This document shows, in pieces, positions 2,744-33,384 of a stretch of 64,000 nt of DNA. The translations under genes and the position numbers were made by a program. The stretch covers positions 510,437 to 574,436 of the forward strand of contig LLKB01000001.1 of NCBI GenBank assembly GCA_001414325.1. Direction: 5' to 3'. The DNA is from Butyribacter intestini (lineage in GTDB: Bacteria > Bacillota > Clostridia > Lachnospirales > Lachnospiraceae). The number at the start of each line of letters is the position of its first letter. Within the stretch, counting starts at the first letter, position 1. The notes beneath the pieces were generated by a model. The model did no database searches and was not told the DNA's origin. It saw only the letters and a list, made by a program, of their open reading frames with translations.

Positions 2744-3673
2744 ATGCGACTATATAATATATATTATTTATGTAAAAATTCTATTAAACCTATTGCAGAA
2801 TTAACAGGAAAACAAAATCATTCGAACACTGCGTACACATTAAATGGTTGGTGCGAGGCAAGAGATTGTCTTACGACAGTTAGCGGAATTAGCTTTTTAA
2901 CCGATTATGTTAATGAAATTTTTGAAATATTTCCCGCTTATCAATTTAAAAAGGAAGGACCAGAATTATCAAATTCTGATTATAGGTTGTTTATATCCAA
3001 AAAAGAATTACTTGTAGCTAGATTGGATGCAATAGTGAAATTATATCAATCAATGGATGCAGGAGAATCAAAAGAGGGGGTTGATATTAAAATCCCCGCT
3101 TGTGGGACTTTGGACGAGTACATAGGGTATATGAAAGATATAAATTTCATTTTAAATCAGTGTCCATTGATTTCAAATTGTGATGAACAGGTAGTATTTA
3201 ACACTGTCGATGTAGGTTCTATGTGGTTATCGTTATTGATAAAGGGAGCAGTCGGGACTCATGTAATTTTAAATACATTAGCTAAATTATCAGAGATAGC
3301 GATAAAGTTTTCATCAAATTATAAGGTTATGAAGATGCAGGATGAGTATCTGGCTTCAATGAAGCAAAAGAATGAGATAGGTCAAGATGTTATAGATACA
3401 TTTAATCAAATTAAAAATAAGATGTTAGATGATGATGTTTCGGAATTGGAAAAAGAGTGTGATGTTGCAATTACAAATCCTGAAGACCGTGATAAAACTG
3501 CAAGAACTATTGAAAAGTTATCAATGCTGATTGATAAGGGTGTGGAAATATATTCAGCAATAGAAACGCCAAATGAAATTAAGGTAATGTTTCCGTTTTC
3601 AGAAAATACGACGCTTTTACCAGATGGTTTGCAGAAGTTGATTGAAGAAAAGGCGAAAAATGACTCTGAATAA
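2744..3673 (+). CDS. Unknown 309-aa protein, probable moron gene
   Basis: No family is recognised. The gene starts at an ATG behind an AAAGGAGGACA ribosome site. The protein is mainly helical, with a Cys/Trp-rich N-terminal third, a hydrophobic patch around residues 155-190 (VDVGSMWLSLLIKG...) that could be one buried or membrane helix, and a charged C-terminal half rich in Asp/Glu/Lys. It has its own candidate promoter (2691-2719), is more AT-rich than the flanking tail genes, and sits between the tape measure and the next tail gene, where no structural gene of this type is expected. Accessory cargo is therefore more likely than a virion part. A role in lysogen fitness or superinfection exclusion is only a guess from position. 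Confidence 0.6.
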   Translation: MRLYNIYYLCKNSIKPIAELTGKQNHSNTAYTLNGWCEARDCLTTVSGISFLTDYVNEIFEIFPAYQFKKEGPELSNSDYRLFISKKELLVARLDAIVKLYQSMDAGESKEGVDIKIPACGTLDEYIGYMKDINFILNQCPLISNCDEQVVFNTVDVGSMWLSLLIKGAVGTHVILNTLAKLSEIAIKFSSNYKVMKMQDEYLASMKQKNEIGQDVIDTFNQIKNKMLDDDVSELEKECDVAITNPEDRDKTARTIEKLSMLIDKGVEIYSAIETPNEIKVMFPFSENTTLLPDGLQKLIEEKAKNDSE

Positions 3674-5565: not shown

Positions 5566-6123
5566 ATGCTAAATAGATATAGGGAAGTTGATGCTTGCAA
5601 GAAAGATATTGAAGATTTTATATGTATGGTAAGTAGTGAAAATTTGTATATTGTAAAAGAAGATTTAACATCCATAGCGAAAGGTATTACTTTTATAAAA
5701 AAGGTATATGCGTATCAGAACGCAGAACATGAACATTATTATAACTGTTTAATAACTGATATGATTAGTCTAATTCATTCATTTAGTTTAAATTCGTTAA
5801 GAGTTTATTATATAACTTTGCGATCACTTATAGAGAACTTGCTACGCGTTATGCTGAAATACAATAATGTGAATGCTACTGGTGTACGCAAAATGTTTGA
5901 GGAATTTCACAGTAAATATAAAAATACAGATAATTTTATAGATTATGTTGAGGGGGAGTATGGTAAATGTTGTGAGGTTATACATAGTAATCACAACACT
6001 TCAATGCCAATGTATTTTTATTATCAAGATATTTTGAAAAACGATGAATTGGGTCAAGAAAAAGTTTCGCAATTATTGAAGCAATTAGTTACTTTTTTAA
6101 TAAATGTAAGAAATATATTGTAG
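5566..6123 (+). CDS. Helical unknown protein, third gene of the ParA operon, frame interrupted near its end
   Basis: Starts one base after the preceding stop, behind GAAGGGA. The 185-aa product is all-helical. The central TLRSLIENLLRVMLKY and later CCEVIHSNHN recall the Arg...Glu and Arg/His-containing helices of HEPN-like or DUF5677-like proteins, but no catalytic RxxxxH motif is confirmed. The frame ends at 6121-6123. The frame reached by adding one base in the T6 run at 6093-6098 is open to a stop at 6234-6236 and encodes a coding-like helical tail (FNKCKKYIVDENI... to FEKNIQES). The intact protein was therefore probably about 222 aa. The break may be a true mutation, slippage at the T-run or a sequencing error. 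Confidence 0.6.
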   Translation: MLNRYREVDACKKDIEDFICMVSSENLYIVKEDLTSIAKGITFIKKVYAYQNAEHEHYYNCLITDMISLIHSFSLNSLRVYYITLRSLIENLLRVMLKYNNVNATGVRKMFEEFHSKYKNTDNFIDYVEGEYGKCCEVIHSNHNTSMPMYFYYQDILKNDELGQEKVSQLLKQLVTFLINVRNIL

Positions 6124-6311
6124 ACGAAAATATAAATGATGTAGATAATGCATTTTATTCTCAGAAAGAAGTTTTATATTATCTTTTAGGTAAAAAGAAT
6201 TATGAATTATTTGAGAAGAATATTCAAGAAAGTTAATTATAGTATTTTGAAACATTATAATAATTCACACATTTCACATTTTAATCATGTTATATTGTTA
6301 TTAGAGAAATT

Positions 6312-6346
6312 AAGGCACTCGCCAAACGGTGAGTGTCTTTTTTGTG
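6312..6346 (+). terminator. Rho-independent terminator closing the accessory operon
   Basis: The hairpin CACTCGCC-AAAC-GGTGAGTG (one G-U pair) is followed by TCTTTTTTG. It lies about 75 bp after the end of the ParA operon and just before the next tail gene, insulating accessory transcription from the tail module, a usual feature of moron cassettes. Confidence 0.8.
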
Positions 6347-6372
6347 TACAAAAATAAGAAAGAGGTGATAGC

Positions 6373-6825
6373 GTGGGATATGAAAAGTCAAAAGGCTTAG
6401 TGGCTGTAGCAAGTGGTTATGACGGCAGCAGCTATTCTTATACCAGGCTGTCATACAAATATATTCAGCCGAATGGGGCATTGGCAATAACTCCGGATCA
6501 GATTCAGGATTTGGACTCTTATCGTAATGGCAATGGCATTTTGAAAAGACATGTGCTGCCGAACAAAGTTCCGTCAATAGAATGGAGTACGCCGTATCTG
6601 AGGTATGAAGACAAATGTAGGCTTATTGCATTGATAAATAAGGCTATGACATATGGAACAGGTGTGAAAAATCAAAGAAGACTTAGGGCGAGATACTATA
6701 ACGATTGGTCGGATGATTACGATACGCATGATTTTTATGTGCCAGATGTTCAATTTCAGTATGGTGGATTGTATCACGGAGCACCGATGTATCTTCCTAT
6801 CAAGATACAGATGATAGGTTATTAG
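6373..6825 (+). CDS. Phage tail protein following the tape measure (150 aa)
   Basis: The start is GTG at 6373, behind AAAGAGGTGAT. The protein has the profile of small tail proteins that sit between tape measure and tail-tip genes in clostridial siphophages: Trp/Tyr-rich, VPSIEWSTPYLRYEDK and RARYYNDWSDDY motifs, and a beta-rich end (FYVPDVQFQYGG). It was probably adjacent to the tape measure before the 3.7-kb accessory insertion. It stops 12 bp before the large tail-tip gene. The assignment is by position and general character; the exact family is not certain. Confidence 0.65.
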   Translation: MGYEKSKGLVAVASGYDGSSYSYTRLSYKYIQPNGALAITPDQIQDLDSYRNGNGILKRHVLPNKVPSIEWSTPYLRYEDKCRLIALINKAMTYGTGVKNQRRLRARYYNDWSDDYDTHDFYVPDVQFQYGGLYHGAPMYLPIKIQMIGY

Positions 6826-6837
6826 GGGGCGAAAGAA

Positions 6838-9642
6838 ATGCTTGAGCTTACAGACAAAGAAAAAAGCTGCTTTTACAAGAATGGAAGTTTCTTTAATGAC
6901 TATGAGTTTGATTTTAAGGAGTTAGGTTACACAATCACGAATGATACATTATATCAGGAAACCGTGACAATCAAGGAAAGTATCTGCGATAGTGATGATT
7001 TGGTGCTGGGAGGTTGTATAGCATCTTCCTGTGAGTTTGAGGTGGCAGAAGTTGCAGGCAGAGAGCTTGCAGGACTGGAATTTACGGCAAGGTTATTAGT
7101 AAACAGCGGCGAAGATGTAATTGTCCCTATTGGGAAGTATCGTGTGGACTCTGCAAAAAGAGTCGATGATAAAGACTACAGAAAAATTGTTGCCTATGAT
7201 GCTTTATATGATGCACAGATAGATGTTTCTGAGTGGTACAATAAAGTTTTCTATGTTGTGTCTCAATATGAAGAATTGATTACAGTCGGAGATATTGACG
7301 ATTTATGGGAACATGGAGACTATTATATTGATAATTCAGGAAGCAAACCACCTACATTCAAATATTTTTTGAACGGTGCAGTACCGGAAGAATTGCGGGA
7401 TACAACATATCTTGACACAGTAACAGGAAAATTGTATGAAGCACAAAATACAAGCGGAGATGAGGATAACAAAGTTTATCGTTGGATTGGGGTGTACCAA
7501 TGCAGAAGAAAGACACAAACAAAGTACATTTACGCAACAACAACACTTAAGAAACTGCGTGAAAGTTTGCTAAATTATTTGAATATTCCTTTTGTTGAAC
7601 AGGATATAATCAATGATGATATTACAATTTCAAGGACTATTGACACAAACGAAAACGGAGAACTGCTCGGAACGGATATGCTGAAATATATTTGTGAGGT
7701 TAATGCCGGTTTTGGCAAAATGAACAGAGAGGGAAAGTTTGAGGTCATTTCATTGCTAAGCCCGGGACTATACCCGGAAGAAACATTATACCCGTCAGAA
7801 GAATTATATCTGGAAGACCATTACGAGCCTATTGCGAGTGATGAAAATTCAGCAAGCTACATATCAACAAGCTACGAAGAATATGAGGTAGAGGGCATCA
7901 CGGGGGTTATCATTAAAGGTGATAGTGATAATGTCGGGGAGCTTGCAGGCACAAAAGATAATCCTTATGTAATCAGCGGAAATCCTCTTTTGTATGGCAG
8001 TACAGCCGAGAAACTAAAGGAAATAGGACAAAAAATTTATGAACAAATAAAAGGATATATATATCGTCCAAATACAACAACACTTGATGGACTTCCGTAC
8101 TTGGAAACAGGTGATTATTTTGTATTGATAAAAGAAAACAGTGACGACATAGGCTCATTCATTTTTTCTAGGACATTAAGTGGAGTACAAGCATTAAAAG
8201 ACACTTATGAGAGCAAAGGAAACAAATTAAGAGTAAATGAAGATACTCAAACATCAGAATTGATGTATTTGCAGTCAAGAACGGCTAAAATTCAAAAGAG
8301 TGTTGACGGCGTGTCGATTGAGTTGGCAAACTTAGACGAAAATACAAGCTCAAGATTTGAACAGACAGCAAGCAAAATTGAAGCCGAGGTAAAAAGAGCA
8401 AACAACGCTGAGGGAGAACTTTCGGGCAGGATAACCGTTACTGCTGGTGAAATAACACAGGAAGTGACAAGAGCAAAAGCTGAAGAAGCAACATTGAGTG
8501 GCAGAATAAATGTAACGGCGGAACAAATTACAGCCGAGGTAAAAAGAGCTGAGGACGAAGAAAATAGTATAAGAACAGCACTTACATTAAAGGCTGACAG
8601 TGCAGAACTGGGATATTATCAGACAAAAGCTGATATGACAAATTATGCTACTACTACTTGGGCTGAAAATAAAATAAGCAGCAAGGTGTCAGTCGGTGAT
8701 GTTTGTAGCGAGATAAATCAATCATCAGAGCAGATTACATTAAAAGGTAATAGACTTGTTGTAGATAGTACTAATTTTAAATTAGACGCAAATGGTAACG
8801 CAGATTACAGAGGAAACATATCCGCCAGTGATGCTAAATTTTATAACATAACAGGCTTTGGAGGAATGATAAGCATTGTTTCTGGAAGCAGTTTTTCAAC
8901 GGCAACAGGCGGCTACCAAAGAGATACTTATGGATATATCAAGGTACATAGTGATGATGGTACGGCAAACTGTTATGTTGAAAGTGATAAACTTATAGGA
9001 GACACAATAGAAACTGGAAGAATCAACAGTACAACCGGCTATTTAGAATTGCACGGTTACACAAAAGCAAAAATGTTTGTATTTAACGATGAAGCGTACG
9101 GAATTGTTCTCGATATGAATGATAATCGTGATTTGCATTTGAGACCAGCATCTAACGAAGATACAGATTGCGGTTCAGCATCTTATAAGTGGCGAAATTT
9201 GTATTGTAAAAATGGTACTATACAGACATCTGACAGAAACGAAAAAATGAACATATCGGATATGTCGGAACAATATGCAAATGCAATTATTGATGATGCT
9301 TTACCGAAAACATATATGATGCTTAATAACGAAAGTGGCAGAACTCATGCAGGAATGATTGCACAGGATTTGGAAGAACAGCTACTAAAAAATGGTATGA
9401 GTTCAAAAGATTTTGCAGGATTTATAAAGTATCAAAAAGAGGATGCCAACGGTGTTCCTATAAACGAGTATGGCTACGGAATACGATACGAGGAATACAT
9501 AGCACCTCTTATTAAATACGCACAGTGTTTAAAGCGAGATTTAAAGCAAGAAACAGAAAGAAACCAGCAGTTACAATTTCAACTTTTTGGTTTACAAGGT
9601 GAATTTATGATATTAAAACAACAGATTTTAGGAGGAAAATAA
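6838..9642 (+). CDS. Phage tail-tip/endosialidase-type protein with C-terminal S74 chaperone domain
   Basis: A 934-aa tail-tip structural protein. The N-terminal 350 residues look like the baseplate-hub type of minor structural protein. Residues about 490-600 carry near-repeats of ITVTAGEITQEVTRAKAEE type, typical of trimeric coiled-coil tail fibres. A beta-rich region follows. The last 130 residues form a peptidase S74 intramolecular chaperone: SDRNEKMNI near residue 798 supplies the conserved Ser and Lys of the self-cleaving dyad, then GMIAQDLEE and the YGIRYEEYIAPLIKYAQ block. S74 domains trimerise the fibre and cut themselves off. Two bases separate it from the next gene. Confidence 0.85.
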   Translation: MLELTDKEKSCFYKNGSFFNDYEFDFKELGYTITNDTLYQETVTIKESICDSDDLVLGGCIASSCEFEVAEVAGRELAGLEFTARLLVNSGEDVIVPIGKYRVDSAKRVDDKDYRKIVAYDALYDAQIDVSEWYNKVFYVVSQYEELITVGDIDDLWEHGDYYIDNSGSKPPTFKYFLNGAVPEELRDTTYLDTVTGKLYEAQNTSGDEDNKVYRWIGVYQCRRKTQTKYIYATTTLKKLRESLLNYLNIPFVEQDIINDDITISRTIDTNENGELLGTDMLKYICEVNAGFGKMNREGKFEVISLLSPGLYPEETLYPSEELYLEDHYEPIASDENSASYISTSYEEYEVEGITGVIIKGDSDNVGELAGTKDNPYVISGNPLLYGSTAEKLKEIGQKIYEQIKGYIYRPNTTTLDGLPYLETGDYFVLIKENSDDIGSFIFSRTLSGVQALKDTYESKGNKLRVNEDTQTSELMYLQSRTAKIQKSVDGVSIELANLDENTSSRFEQTASKIEAEVKRANNAEGELSGRITVTAGEITQEVTRAKAEEATLSGRINVTAEQITAEVKRAEDEENSIRTALTLKADSAELGYYQTKADMTNYATTTWAENKISSKVSVGDVCSEINQSSEQITLKGNRLVVDSTNFKLDANGNADYRGNISASDAKFYNITGFGGMISIVSGSSFSTATGGYQRDTYGYIKVHSDDGTANCYVESDKLIGDTIETGRINSTTGYLELHGYTKAKMFVFNDEAYGIVLDMNDNRDLHLRPASNEDTDCGSASYKWRNLYCKNGTIQTSDRNEKMNISDMSEQYANAIIDDALPKTYMMLNNESGRTHAGMIAQDLEEQLLKNGMSSKDFAGFIKYQKEDANGVPINEYGYGIRYEEYIAPLIKYAQCLKRDLKQETERNQQLQFQLFGLQGEFMILKQQILGGK

Positions 9643-17458: not shown

Positions 17459-17467
17459 GAAACAAAA

Positions 17468-17498
17468 AAACTGCTAGGAGTGCTATTCCTAACAGTTT
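17468..17498 (+). terminator. Hairpin after the HTH gene, possible terminator
   Basis: AAACTG-C-TAGGA pairs with TCCTA-A-CAGTTT (one mismatch) and is followed, after a short gap, by ATTTTTT. It may be a weak terminator or attenuator in the early operon. Confidence 0.5.
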
Positions 17499-17734
17499 AA
17501 TGCTAAATTTTTTAACCCTATGTACTTTGCAGACTTTCGTCACACTTAATAGCACTAAATGTTTCTATTAAGTACTCCGCTACTTATGCAGTTTTAGTTC
17601 AGCATGATTTTATTAGAGAACAGGGCAAGGAAGTTTTATATTCAGGTTAATTCTCCTTTCCTGCCCATTGGGGTATTAAAATATGAACATTTTATCAATA
17701 AAAATTCAGGTAATAAAAAGAAAGGAGAGCAACA
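17499..17734 (+). promoter_or_regulatory. Non-coding stretch with inverted repeat before the antirepressor gene
   Basis: No gene seen. ACTTAATAG (17544-17552) and CTATTAAGT (17565-17573) form a perfect 9-bp inverted repeat with a 12-bp loop. Further on, GGGCAAGGAAG and CTTTCCTGCCC make an imperfect long-range pairing (about 17623-17670). A regulatory leader for the antirepressor is plausible. Confidence 0.45.
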
Positions 17735-25697: not shown

Positions 25698-26300
25698 ATG
25701 ATTATCTTGGAGGATATGGGACAGAAAGAGGAAAAACACACGGCTAAAAATCAATGGTTTTATGAAAATGGTATTGATGTTATGCGTGTACCGCTTCCTG
25801 TCGGAGATTATATCATTGCAAATGATAAAGCTATGAATGTGTTGGAACGCAAGGAAAAACGAAATGTTAGACCAAAGAAGATGGATTTTCTTGGTACATA
25901 CTCTGTAGCAGTAGACACAAAAGAGAATATAGGTGAGATAGTCAATAATATTTGTGGTAAATCACATGACAGATTTCGTGACGAATGTGTATTAGCACAG
26001 AACAACGGAGTGCAGTTATATATTCTTGTGGAGAATGAAGATGGAGTAACCTGCATTGATGATTTATCAAAATGGGAAAATCCTAGATTATATCGTTACA
26101 ATAAGATTAAATTTATGCACAATCTTGGAAAATGGCAGCATATAGCATTGCCAAAAAGACCACCAACAAAAGGTGAAACACTCGCGAAAGCAATGGTTAC
26201 TATGGAAAAGGAATATGGAGTACGCTTTATGTTCTGCCATCCTGATGAAGCAGGGGCTACAGTTGTTGAATTATTGGAAGGAATCAAAGATGACGGATGA
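25698..26300 (+). CDS. ERCC4-type nuclease
   Basis: A 200-aa protein; ATG at 25698 fits the ATAAGGAG site at 25683-25690, while a TTG at 25641 would add 19 residues without a ribosome site. The ERCC4 nuclease pattern is visible: an acidic residue in LEDMGQKEEKH, VPLPVGDYIIAN near residue 40, and VLERKEKRN as the ERKxxxD-like site (Asp replaced by a later KKMDF). AVDTKENIGEIVNNICGKSH, then FRDECVLAQNNGVQLYILVE, match phage members. It probably cuts branched or nicked DNA in phage recombination. It overlaps the sigma-like gene by 11 bp. Confidence 0.75.
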   Translation: MIILEDMGQKEEKHTAKNQWFYENGIDVMRVPLPVGDYIIANDKAMNVLERKEKRNVRPKKMDFLGTYSVAVDTKENIGEIVNNICGKSHDRFRDECVLAQNNGVQLYILVENEDGVTCIDDLSKWENPRLYRYNKIKFMHNLGKWQHIALPKRPPTKGETLAKAMVTMEKEYGVRFMFCHPDEAGATVVELLEGIKDDG

Positions 26301-26811
26301 ACAAAGAAAGCTAGTAGAAGATAATCACTCGCTTATATATCTTGTTATTAACAACATGGGGTTATCTGTAGAAGATAATTATGATATAGCAGCTATTGGC
26401 TTGTGTAATGCTGCTATAGGATATGATTCAAGGAAATATACATTTTCCACATTTGCTTACAAGTGCATAAAGAATGAGATAATGAAAGATTTTGCAGCGA
26501 AGAAAAGGCAGAAACGAATATTAGATAGTAATCTTATAAGTTATGATGCACCATTACGATTAAAGCACGATGATGGAGAGGAAATTACTCTTTTGGAACA
26601 GATAAAGTCAGCAGAATCTGTTGAGAGTGAAGCTATAAGCAGGATAATGTATGCAGAAGTTGTACAGGAATTAGGAAAAACAGATGGAAAAGTGTTGAAA
26701 TTCTTTGAAATTGGTCTTAAGCAACGGGAAATCGCTGAAATAATGGGTGTGACCCAGGCGAATGTTTCCAGAGTAAAAAGGCGGGTAGAAAAGATGTTAT
26801 GTTGTGATTGA
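26290..26811 (+). CDS. Sigma-70-family-like phage regulator
   Basis: A 173-aa protein; start ATGACGGATGAA at 26290, overlapping the nuclease gene, with GGAAGGAATC upstream. Region 2 is seen as IYLVINNMGLSVEDNYDIAA, GLCNAAIGYD and KYTFSTFAYKCIKNEIMKDF; region 4 as VLKFFEIGLKQREIAEIMGV, TQANVSRVKRRVEKML. Region 3 is absent, as in short phage sigma-like factors. It may switch on late genes after early expression. Promoters recognised by it are not identified. Confidence 0.85.
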   Translation: MTDEQRKLVEDNHSLIYLVINNMGLSVEDNYDIAAIGLCNAAIGYDSRKYTFSTFAYKCIKNEIMKDFAAKKRQKRILDSNLISYDAPLRLKHDDGEEITLLEQIKSAESVESEAISRIMYAEVVQELGKTDGKVLKFFEIGLKQREIAEIMGVTQANVSRVKRRVEKMLCCD

Positions 26812-27355: not shown

Positions 27356-27383
27356 TATAAAAAGCACCTAATTTGTTAGGTGC
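27356..27383 (-). terminator. Terminator of the minus-strand tRNA-like gene
   Basis: GCACCTAA/TTAGGTGC stem (27383-27376 and 27371-27364) with a 4-base loop, followed on the minus strand by TTTTTATAT. It begins five bases after the 3' end of the tRNA-like sequence. Confidence 0.8.
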
Positions 27384-27387
27384 AGTA

Positions 27388-27470
27388 CATTCGTAGCGGG
27401 ACTCGAACCCGCACATCATTAAGATAATAGTTTGGCAAACTATCGCGTCTACCAATTCCGCCATACGCTC
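27388..27470 (-). tRNA. Chimeric class II tRNA: leucine-type body, anticodon GCC (Gly), imperfect acceptor stem
   Basis: An 83-nt tRNA fold. Positions 8-26 read TGGCGGAATTGGTAGACGCG, the signature D-arm of bacterial tRNA-Leu. The anticodon stem ATAGT/ACTAT holds loop TTGCCAA with anticodon GCC, which reads glycine GGC. A 14-nt class II variable arm follows, then a canonical T-arm GCGGG-TTCGAGT-CCCGC. The acceptor pairs at 4-7 but has G-U at 1-72 and mismatches A-A and G-A at 2-71 and 3-70; the discriminator is G and no CCA is encoded. It has its own promoter and terminator, so it is transcribed. It may be a decaying tRNA, or an unusual RNA that could place leucine or serine at Gly codons or have a regulatory role. 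Confidence 0.75.
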
Positions 27471-27498
27471 ATATGAGATGTACATAAAGTACTATTAT

Positions 27499-27527
27499 TT
27501 TATACCATAAAAATAAAAAAATGTAAA
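27499..27527 (-). promoter_or_regulatory. Strong promoter of the tRNA-like gene
   Basis: On the minus strand TTTACA (27527-27522), 17-bp spacer ending TGG, then TATAAA (27504-27499); the TGN makes an extended -10. The expected start is about 20 nt upstream of the tRNA 5' end. Confidence 0.75.
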
Positions 27528-27594: not shown

Positions 27595-28428
27595 ATGAGA
27601 GCAGTATTAAAATATCCAGGAAGTAAATGGAATATAGCGTCACAGTTGGTGGAAATGATACCGGAACATCACAGCTATGTAGAACCGTTTTTCGGAAGTG
27701 GAGCAGTTTTATTCAATAAGCCAGTATCTGATATTGAGACAATCAATGATTTAGCACATGATGTTGTGAATCTTTTTAGGTGTATACAAGAGGATGCAGC
27801 TCGATTAGCTACAATGGTAATTACTACACCTTTTAGCCGTGAAAAATATGAAGATACATATAAGTTAGATATATGGGAAGTAATGATGCCCGATGAACCA
27901 TATCATAAGGCATTGAGATTTCTAATTCAGTGTTGGCAGGGACACGGATTTCGCACCAATGACAGTAAGGTTGGCTGGAAAAATGATGTGCAGGGCAGGG
28001 AAAGAGCCTATGCGTTATGGAATTGGTATCGATTACCAGAGTGGATTATTGACATAGCGGAGAGACTTCGTAGGGTACAGATTGAAAATCGTCCAGCATT
28101 GGAAGTTATTAAGAGATTTGATTATGAAAATGTATTTATGTACTTAGACCCGCCATATTTATTGAATACTAGGGCAGGGAAGCAATATAAGCATGAAATG
28201 TCAGATACAGAACATGAGGAATTGTTAAAAGCAATAGTAAACAGTAAAGCAAAAATTATGATTTCAGGATATGAATCAGACTTATATAACGAATATCTTA
28301 AGAAATGGCATAAAGCAACATTTAATAGCTGTGCAGAACATGGCAAAAAAAGAATTGAAGTCGTGTGGATGAATTATCAAAAGGGACAGATGACTTTAAA
28401 GGATTATGTTACAAGGGGGCAATTATGA
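27595..28428 (+). CDS. D12-class DNA adenine-N6 methyltransferase (Dam-like)
   Basis: A 277-aa adenine methylase. Motif X/I region KYPGSKWNIA and VEPFFGSGAVLF (AdoMet binding) are at residues 5-42, and the catalytic DPPY is in MYLDPPYLLN near residue 184. The length is normal for phage Dam enzymes. The recognition sequence cannot be read from the protein; GATC is common in the class. No restriction enzyme is nearby, so it probably protects phage DNA or times replication. It overlaps the cytosine methylase gene by 4 bp (ATGA). Its start has no close ribosome site. Confidence 0.9.
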   Translation: MRAVLKYPGSKWNIASQLVEMIPEHHSYVEPFFGSGAVLFNKPVSDIETINDLAHDVVNLFRCIQEDAARLATMVITTPFSREKYEDTYKLDIWEVMMPDEPYHKALRFLIQCWQGHGFRTNDSKVGWKNDVQGRERAYALWNWYRLPEWIIDIAERLRRVQIENRPALEVIKRFDYENVFMYLDPPYLLNTRAGKQYKHEMSDTEHEELLKAIVNSKAKIMISGYESDLYNEYLKKWHKATFNSCAEHGKKRIEVVWMNYQKGQMTLKDYVTRGQL

Positions 28429-33235: not shown

Positions 33236-33280
33236 TCACTCGTAATGAAGGGGTCGTGGGTTCGAGTCCCATTTTCAGCT
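33236..33280 (+). other. attR: 3' half of a tRNA gene, probably tRNA-Thr(CGU)
   Basis: TCACTCGTAATGAAGG, then GGTC, the T-arm GTGGG-TTCGAGT-CCCAT and TTTCAGCT read as the 3' half of a tRNA. The anticodon loop CTCGTAA gives CGU (Thr), and the 3' anticodon stem TGAAG requires CTTCA, which is absent on the left. The left flank is phage DNA. So this is the right attachment site, and the complete tRNA should be at the other prophage end. The phage side happens to carry GCTGAA, able to pair with TTTCAGC. Confidence 0.8.
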
Positions 33281-33384
33281 TAAATGGAAAGTCTTGAAAA
33301 TATTGATATTATCAGGGCTTTTTTTGTTATAAAAAAAACTATCAATAATATGCTTATGCTGGAGATGGAGAACAAATATAAAAA

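Follow-up and report, generated by a model that had tools for sequence, protein, structure and literature searches.

A leucine-type tRNA gene with a glycine anticodon and an open acceptor end in a Butyribacter intestini prophage: a possible tRNA mimic

The stretch of DNA analysed here (hereafter the window) comprises 64,000 nt of the Butyribacter intestini genome (C1:510437-574436) and covers the right-hand portion of a prophage about 59 kb in size (C1:484669-543718). At attL, an intact host tRNA-Thr(CGT) gene (C1:484669-484741) adjoins a tyrosine integrase gene. In the early gene region, a tRNA gene is located on the minus strand between plus-strand genes for a sigma-like factor, DNA methyltransferases, a DnaD-like loader and a primase/helicase (Table 1). 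A fragment left at the integration site was considered and rejected, because the tRNA is full-length and sits about 5.8 kb inside attR, with the att sites elsewhere. A second tRNA gene, Glu(TTC), occurs in the same prophage (L402 7386-7457; C1:491385-491456), and its loop, CTTTCTC, has T at position 37, which in tRNAs is normally a purine. The prophage also contains a strong FuFi-1 RNA (RF02986, 141.9 bits) at window positions 17465-17620, minus strand.

Table 1. Features of the window and related loci.
Feature	Location	Strand	Evidence or setting
Phage sigma-factor-like gene, neighbour of the tRNA	26287..26811	+	PHROG 351, E 2e-24
Intrinsic-terminator-like site just 3' of the tRNA, 8-bp stem, T tract	27359..27383	-	Terminator scan
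Leucine-core class II tRNA-like gene with GCC anticodon, G73 and an open acceptor top	27388..27470	-	ARAGORN, RF00005, pair table
Leader motif GTACATCTCA, present unchanged in L177 (Clostridia prophage relative)	27474..27483	-	Sequence
Extended -10 element TGGTATAAA, 17 nt from -35	27499..27507	-	By eye
-35 element TTTACA	27522..27527	-	By eye
Phage DNA methyltransferase gene, strand opposite to the tRNA	27595..28428	+	PHROG 56, E 1.5e-67
attR at the prophage right end, a 47-nt exact match to the 3' portion of host tRNA-Thr(CGT)	33236..33282	+	Sequence identity
Leucine-bodied tRNA, GCC (L177)	Clostridia MAG		Beside terminase genes
Leucine-bodied tRNA, GCC (L194)	Clostridia MAG		Phage-like by ORF content; Pfam named one of two tested proteins, a DNA methylase
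Leucine-bodied tRNA, GCC (L179)	Chitinophagaceae (Bacteroidota)		Beside integrase
Leucine-bodied tRNA, GCC (L237)	Acidobacteria		
Leucine-bodied tRNA, GCC (L253)	Gemmatimonadota		
Leucine-bodied tRNA, GCC (L255)	Sphingobacteriaceae (Bacteroidota)		About 2.3 kb from Piwi-domain gene
Leucine-bodied tRNAs, GCC (L084, L128)	Viral contigs		
Leucine-core RNAs without an ordinary anticodon arm	L268-L386, L404-L446, viral contigs		e.g. L270, L280, L309, L329, L336

ARAGORN called this gene tRNA-Gly(gcc) at 27387-27471 on the minus strand, and the Rfam model RF00005 matched 27467-27392, minus strand, with 43.5 bits (cut-off 29, E 6e-6); together with the pair table, these calls rule out a chance match to the tRNA model. 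The body is 83 nt long, with a 7/5 acceptor/T branch. In its D arm (GGCGGAATTGGTAGACGC), variable arm and position 48 it is leucine-like, with A15-U48, G18G19 and A20a, and 14 nt (U48 counted in) separate the anticodon and T stems. The D (3/3), anticodon (5/5) and T (5/5) stems are fully paired, and neither the anticodon arm, ATAGT-TTGCCAA-ACTAT, nor the T arm has any fault. In the acceptor, GAGCGTA/TACGAAT, four good pairs are followed by the mismatches G3.A70 and A2.A71 and the wobble G1.U72; N73 is G, and CCA is not encoded. The non-Watson-Crick pairs are thus exactly the top three of 20 stem pairs, a placement expected by chance once in 1140 cases, which is an after-the-fact figure. Structure prediction gives this tRNA a minimum-energy fold other than the cloverleaf, and the 85-nt body by itself shows no folding advantage over shuffled sequences (z -0.95), both of which count against a functional tRNA mimic; with leader and terminator included, the folding z is -2.87.

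The promoter, as read by eye, consists of TTTACA (27527-27522), a spacer of 17 nt and TG-G-TATAAA (27504-27499). It is missing from the output of the pattern promoter scan, in which the -10 element must end in T. The terminator, GCACCTAACAAATTAGGTGC-TTTTT with its stem at 27383-27364, is among three terminator-like sites found by the scan, against 0.4 in shuffles. The original prediction, a leucine-type body with a glycine GCC anticodon flanked by promoter and terminator in a phage setting, is borne out by these calls, by the flanks (promoter by eye, terminator by scan) and by the position inside the prophage. Two of its details did not hold. It listed the missing CCA beside the acceptor mismatches, but in the host genome CCA directly follows N73 in none of the 41 distinct ARAGORN calls (by eye, eight letter-hits fall within the acceptor), so this is no sign of decay. 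It also regarded the self-complementary anticodon arm, which could close the loop, as special; the host tRNA-Gly(GCC) copies, whose anticodon arm is GCCTTGCCAAGGC, have the same TTGCCAA loop.

The window tRNA was scored against the bacterial identity sets given in the available part of PMC9976931; such rules come mostly from model organisms. According to that text, the leucine set comprises A15-U48, G18G19, A20a and A73; the serine set, G73, C72, G2-C71, R4-Y69, C11-G24, G30-C40 and a long variable arm; and the glycine set, C35, C36, U73, G1-C72, C2-G71 and G3-C70. As listed there, neither the leucine nor the serine set contains an anticodon base, the long variable arm itself is not crucial for E. 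coli tRNA-Leu, and this tRNA stays active without its anticodon and variable arms (PMC9976931, same part). The window tRNA carries the whole leucine core, including a long variable arm, with G73 instead of the discriminator A73 and GCC instead of a leucine anticodon (A35). For serine, it has G73, the long variable arm, C11-G24 and G30-C40; C72, G2-C71 and R4-Y69 are replaced by U72, A2.A71 and C4-G69. For glycine, C35 and C36 are present, together with none of the acceptor features (G73, G1.U72, A2.A71 and G3.A70 stand in their places). Since the acceptor end fails the requirements of all three systems, efficient loading with Leu, Ser or Gly by the respective synthetases is not expected from these rules.

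The host possesses three ordinary tRNA-Gly(GCC) genes and also tRNA-Gly(TCC), and its leucine tRNAs have the anticodons AAG, CAA, CAG, TAA and TAG (ARAGORN). With three such genes in the host, no phage GCC tRNA is needed for decoding. GGC makes up 14.0% of Gly codons in the phage and 10.7% in neighbouring host DNA (ORFs of at least 100 aa). Among 22 motif glycines in phage genes, chosen by eye, four are encoded by GGC and ten by GGU. Reassignment of GGC to Leu was rejected, as GGC encodes motif glycines in the SSB, metallo-beta-lactamase-like and C5-methyltransferase genes.

Related genes were sought with a pattern joining the leucine D arm to TTGCCAA, which gave 97 stretches in a collection of one genome per species (84,980 species), while a slightly looser form gave 103 stretches in viral contigs. 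ARAGORN confirmed a class II GCC tRNA in nine of these 200 stretches. One, the viral L138, is 100% identical to the window over 13,393 nt and represents the same phage. There are eight independent leucine-bodied GCC tRNAs, some from viral contigs and some from the genomes of bacteria that belong to several phyla. Other glycine anticodons occur on leucine bodies in viral contigs, namely TCC in L382, L394 and L397 (= L399) and ACC in L360. Canonical tRNA-Gly is present in five of seven genomes checked, and none was found in those of L194 and L255. At L255, the open-acceptor tRNA (3489-3570) lies near a Piwi-domain (Argonaute-like) gene (5890-7785) and a large TrkA_N-domain protein, surroundings that are possibly a defence island.

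Within the window's own lineage, the gene is rare. A DNA search of 61 genomes matched 20, with a full-length match in the own genome only (partial matches being taken whatever their anticodon). Among phage records, 38 matched, none over 80% of the query, and the 20 listed are annotated as tRNA-Leu or carry no annotation there. The strict viral pattern gave no match; of the nine stretches found with a GAGC-start pattern, six are tRNA-Leu(TAA), one has TCC, one is L138 and one received no ARAGORN call. The neighbour-protein search returned the same phage and one 36% relative, and the leader pattern matched twice beyond the own genome among 391 genomes, with no tRNA after either match. The original prediction held that a lack of related sequences would indicate a decayed tRNA; the eight independent cases, one of which (L177) shares the leader, speak otherwise. 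Conserved copies in other prophages, for which it proposed a search, have so far gained no support: the sole other copy, L138, is the same phage and cannot serve to gauge conservation in this lineage. No leucine-bodied phage tRNA with a glycine anticodon, and no anticodon-less leucine RNA, was found reported in the part of the literature covered.

Further anticodons were surveyed in viral contigs. The strict D-arm pattern with C36 anticodons gave 13 stretches, of which eight, with at least four anticodon-stem pairs, are all Gly (seven distinct, one being the window's own phage); left out were an Ala row with three pairs and four rows with one or two. A scan for anticodons having neither A35 nor C36 gave 60 stretches with 31 passing rows, whose distinct tRNAs include six Asn, five Gln, four His and three Pro, several Gln and His members having short variable arms. 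Both scans demand A37A38 and so favour some loops. The idea that Gly is the sole foreign anticodon on leucine bodies was rejected by the Asn, Gln, His and Pro cases. Leucine-bodied phage tRNAs with good anticodon stems and foreign or stop anticodons include L404, L417 and L438 (Pro TGG), L405 (CTA), L413 (TTA), L415 (CCA) and L444 (GCG).

When 13 leucine-bodied tRNAs with Gly anticodons were compared, two groups emerged. Nine (L194, L237, L253, L084, L128, L394, L397, L382 and L360) have a near-intact acceptor and A73; L382 shows a single mismatch each in the acceptor and the anticodon stem, and L084 one T-stem mismatch in a manually set register. These nine should be leucine acceptors reading glycine codons, which is strange in itself. 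An open acceptor is therefore not general among the 13, which counts against a mimic. In the other four (the window tRNA, L177, L179 and L255), mismatches lie solely within acceptor positions 1-4; the remaining stems of L177, L179 and L255 have at most G.U wobbles, and N73 is G, T, A and T, respectively. The window tRNA, L177 and L179 all start with GAGC and have G3.A70, and the leader stands before ATGAGC in both the window and L177.

Flanking signals were found for several of these genes; those of L177, L179 and L255 favour a mimic, whereas the promoter scan results at L179 and L255 count against it. L177 is preceded at 30 nt by a promoter TTGACA-16-TATAAT (12/12, pattern scan) and followed at 4 nt by a 10-bp terminator, and L397 has a promoter (10/12, pattern scan) and a terminator. 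At L255, a terminator follows about 30 nt after the RNA, and the sole promoter-like site lies about 60 nt upstream. At L179, the RNA is followed at about 30 nt by a terminator-like stem; the promoter scan, built for sigma-70 and not covering Bacteroidota promoters, found none there, and by eye TATCTTTG, which we take to be a Bacteroidota-type promoter motif, lies 4 nt before the RNA. At L194, the single terminator-like site of the scan is the anticodon arm itself, and an A+T-rich hairpin downstream was seen by eye only.

Two explanations compete most closely for the window gene. The one we favour, tentatively and from sequence features, is that it encodes an expressed but poorly chargeable tRNA mimic acting as a decoy or regulator. 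A stand-alone phage gene would be transcribed from its own promoter, and the transcript would fold as a tRNA that tRNA-handling proteins may bind, yet that would not be efficiently aminoacylated, thereby displaying the GCC stem-loop on the core of a class II tRNA. As its target, a tRNA-acting host factor would be the likeliest candidate, e.g., an anticodon or variable-loop nuclease. The retained leucine core, combined with the absence of A73 and the failure of the Gly and Ser acceptor requirements, argues for such a mimic. A phage tRNA in decay, that is, an old leucine type with a changed anticodon, an eroding acceptor, leftover flanks and no function, is also possible, with somewhat lower probability. 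The acceptor mismatches and G73 fit it, as do the lowest score among the 51 above-cut-off tRNA matches of the host genome, the ordinary host tRNA-Gly(GCC) and the restriction of the gene to the host's own genome among 397 of the family; this rarity, like that of L177 (among 146 relatives, found in the L177 genome itself only), counts against a mimic, and the good flanks could also belong to a young decayed tRNA. What speaks against decay is the fully Watson-Crick pairing of the D, anticodon and T stems, with all three faults at the acceptor top, the acceptor-confined mismatches of L177, L179 and L255 and the leader common to L177. The four acceptor-only cases, few in number and tested after the data had been seen, argue against simple decay, since decay at random would not be expected to leave three arms intact and damage one end in all four.

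A role in translation is less likely than mimicry. The original prediction offered Leu or Ser insertion at GGC codons alongside a regulatory RNA or decoy, and the latter is the half that survives better. A mistranslating tRNA, charged with Leu or Ser despite its acceptor and active at GGC/GGU codons, would draw on the leucine core, the anticodon-free identity sets, the serine-compatible features (G73, C11-G24, G30-C40 and long variable arm) and the A73 relatives with near-intact acceptors; the lack of A73 for Leu and of C72, G2-C71 and R4-Y69 for Ser, and the normal GGC/GGU use in phage genes, motif glycines included, make it improbable. A genuine glycine tRNA of class II, loaded by GlyRS to supplement decoding in the lytic cycle, could claim C35, C36 and the loop of host tRNA-Gly, but U73, G1-C72, C2-G71 and G3-C70 are all absent and GGC is just slightly commoner in the phage, so it is very unlikely. 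Least probable is a decoy that mimics uncharged tRNA-Gly towards a host glycine T-box riboswitch. Eleven T-box matches with E of at most 0.001 do occur in the host, four over the family cut-off, but ten precede ORFs that resemble, by eye, pheS, leuA, ilvB, trpE, a transporter, thrS, aspS, metG, valS and ileS, the eleventh (L461) is not near any clear gene, and no glyQS was seen by eye among the ORFs that follow; moreover, G73 would be unfit for a T-box built for U73.

Among known systems, bacterial tRNA-Leu shares with the window tRNA its core, long variable arm and D arm, and differs in the anticodon, the discriminator A73 and the paired acceptor top. Phage tRNAs with altered anticodon loops are described, in the available parts of PMC10264068, PMC11555353 and PMC13096335, as evading tRNA nucleases. 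These are likewise phage-borne, with an unexpected anticodon loop and a possible tie to tRNA-cutting defences, but, as presented there, they escape or offset cutting, whereas the window tRNA looks unfit for charging. In allo-tRNAs and other natural non-canonical tRNAs, anticodon and body also disagree; the available part of PMC7609411 gives them an 8/4 or 9/3 acceptor branch, in contrast to 7/5 and a leucine core here. In tRNA-dependent lysogeny, too, a temperate phage carries a tRNA gene and is integrated at one belonging to the host; according to the available part of PMC10865867, the phage tRNA there replaces a disrupted host tRNA of the same isotype. Here, the host tRNA-Thr is intact at attL and the phage tRNA is not Thr.

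A wider lead comes from 163 viral-contig loci with the leucine D arm, for which all counts of RNAs are lower bounds. A full T stem together with six or seven acceptor pairs is seen in at least 76 distinct RNAs, and at least 50 of these, called armless below, lack an ordinary anticodon arm (at least four pairs, a 7-nt loop and T33). Among the matches listed, T48 occurs in 47 of 50 armless RNAs and A73 in 39, compared with 26 of 26 and 18 of 26 RNAs with an ordinary arm. When any arm was allowed (at least four pairs, 5-10-nt loop), 18 of the 50 listed still had none (A73 in 15, T48 in 17); the 32 that passed mean little, because random sequence is estimated to pass about seven times in ten. Some armless RNAs with inserts longer than 130 nt look like they carry introns, and some may be ordinary tRNAs whose arms are unusual. 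At nine of 17 D-arm sites of this kind, drawn from 12 loci, the general Rfam tRNA model reached its cut-off, several matches containing long insertions, and no other Rfam family was named at those sites. L362, L315, L345 and L376 have two or three armless RNAs each. A freshwater-1 RNA (RF02979, 72.1 bits, cut-off 72) lies at L376 1006-1067, near several leucine-core RNAs of one viral contig. A second RNA set starts with GTGGCGGAATAGGTAGACGC and has a T loop TGCAAAT (position 55 being G, not T) and a long middle (L299, L305, L306, L319, L327, L355, L366 and others); at five loci of this kind (L269, L271, L272, L276 and L281), Rfam named ordinary tRNAs elsewhere in the locus, or nothing.

Phages and mobile elements may have turned leucine-type tRNAs into non-decoding mimics repeatedly, either by a Gly anticodon with an open, unchargeable acceptor (window, L177, L179 and L255) or by replacement of the ordinary anticodon arm, the leucine core being kept (at least 50 distinct RNAs). 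We consider this doubtful, and slightly more so because some armless RNAs may be ordinary tRNAs. If true, such mimics would act on LeuRS, EF-Tu or tRNA-cutting defences rather than on codons.

The reason why phages carry tRNA genes is still debated. The combination of a leucine core, a glycine anticodon and an unfit acceptor is hard to account for by codon supply. The window tRNA offers a clean test of the decoy idea, and its relatives in several phyla make that test a general one.
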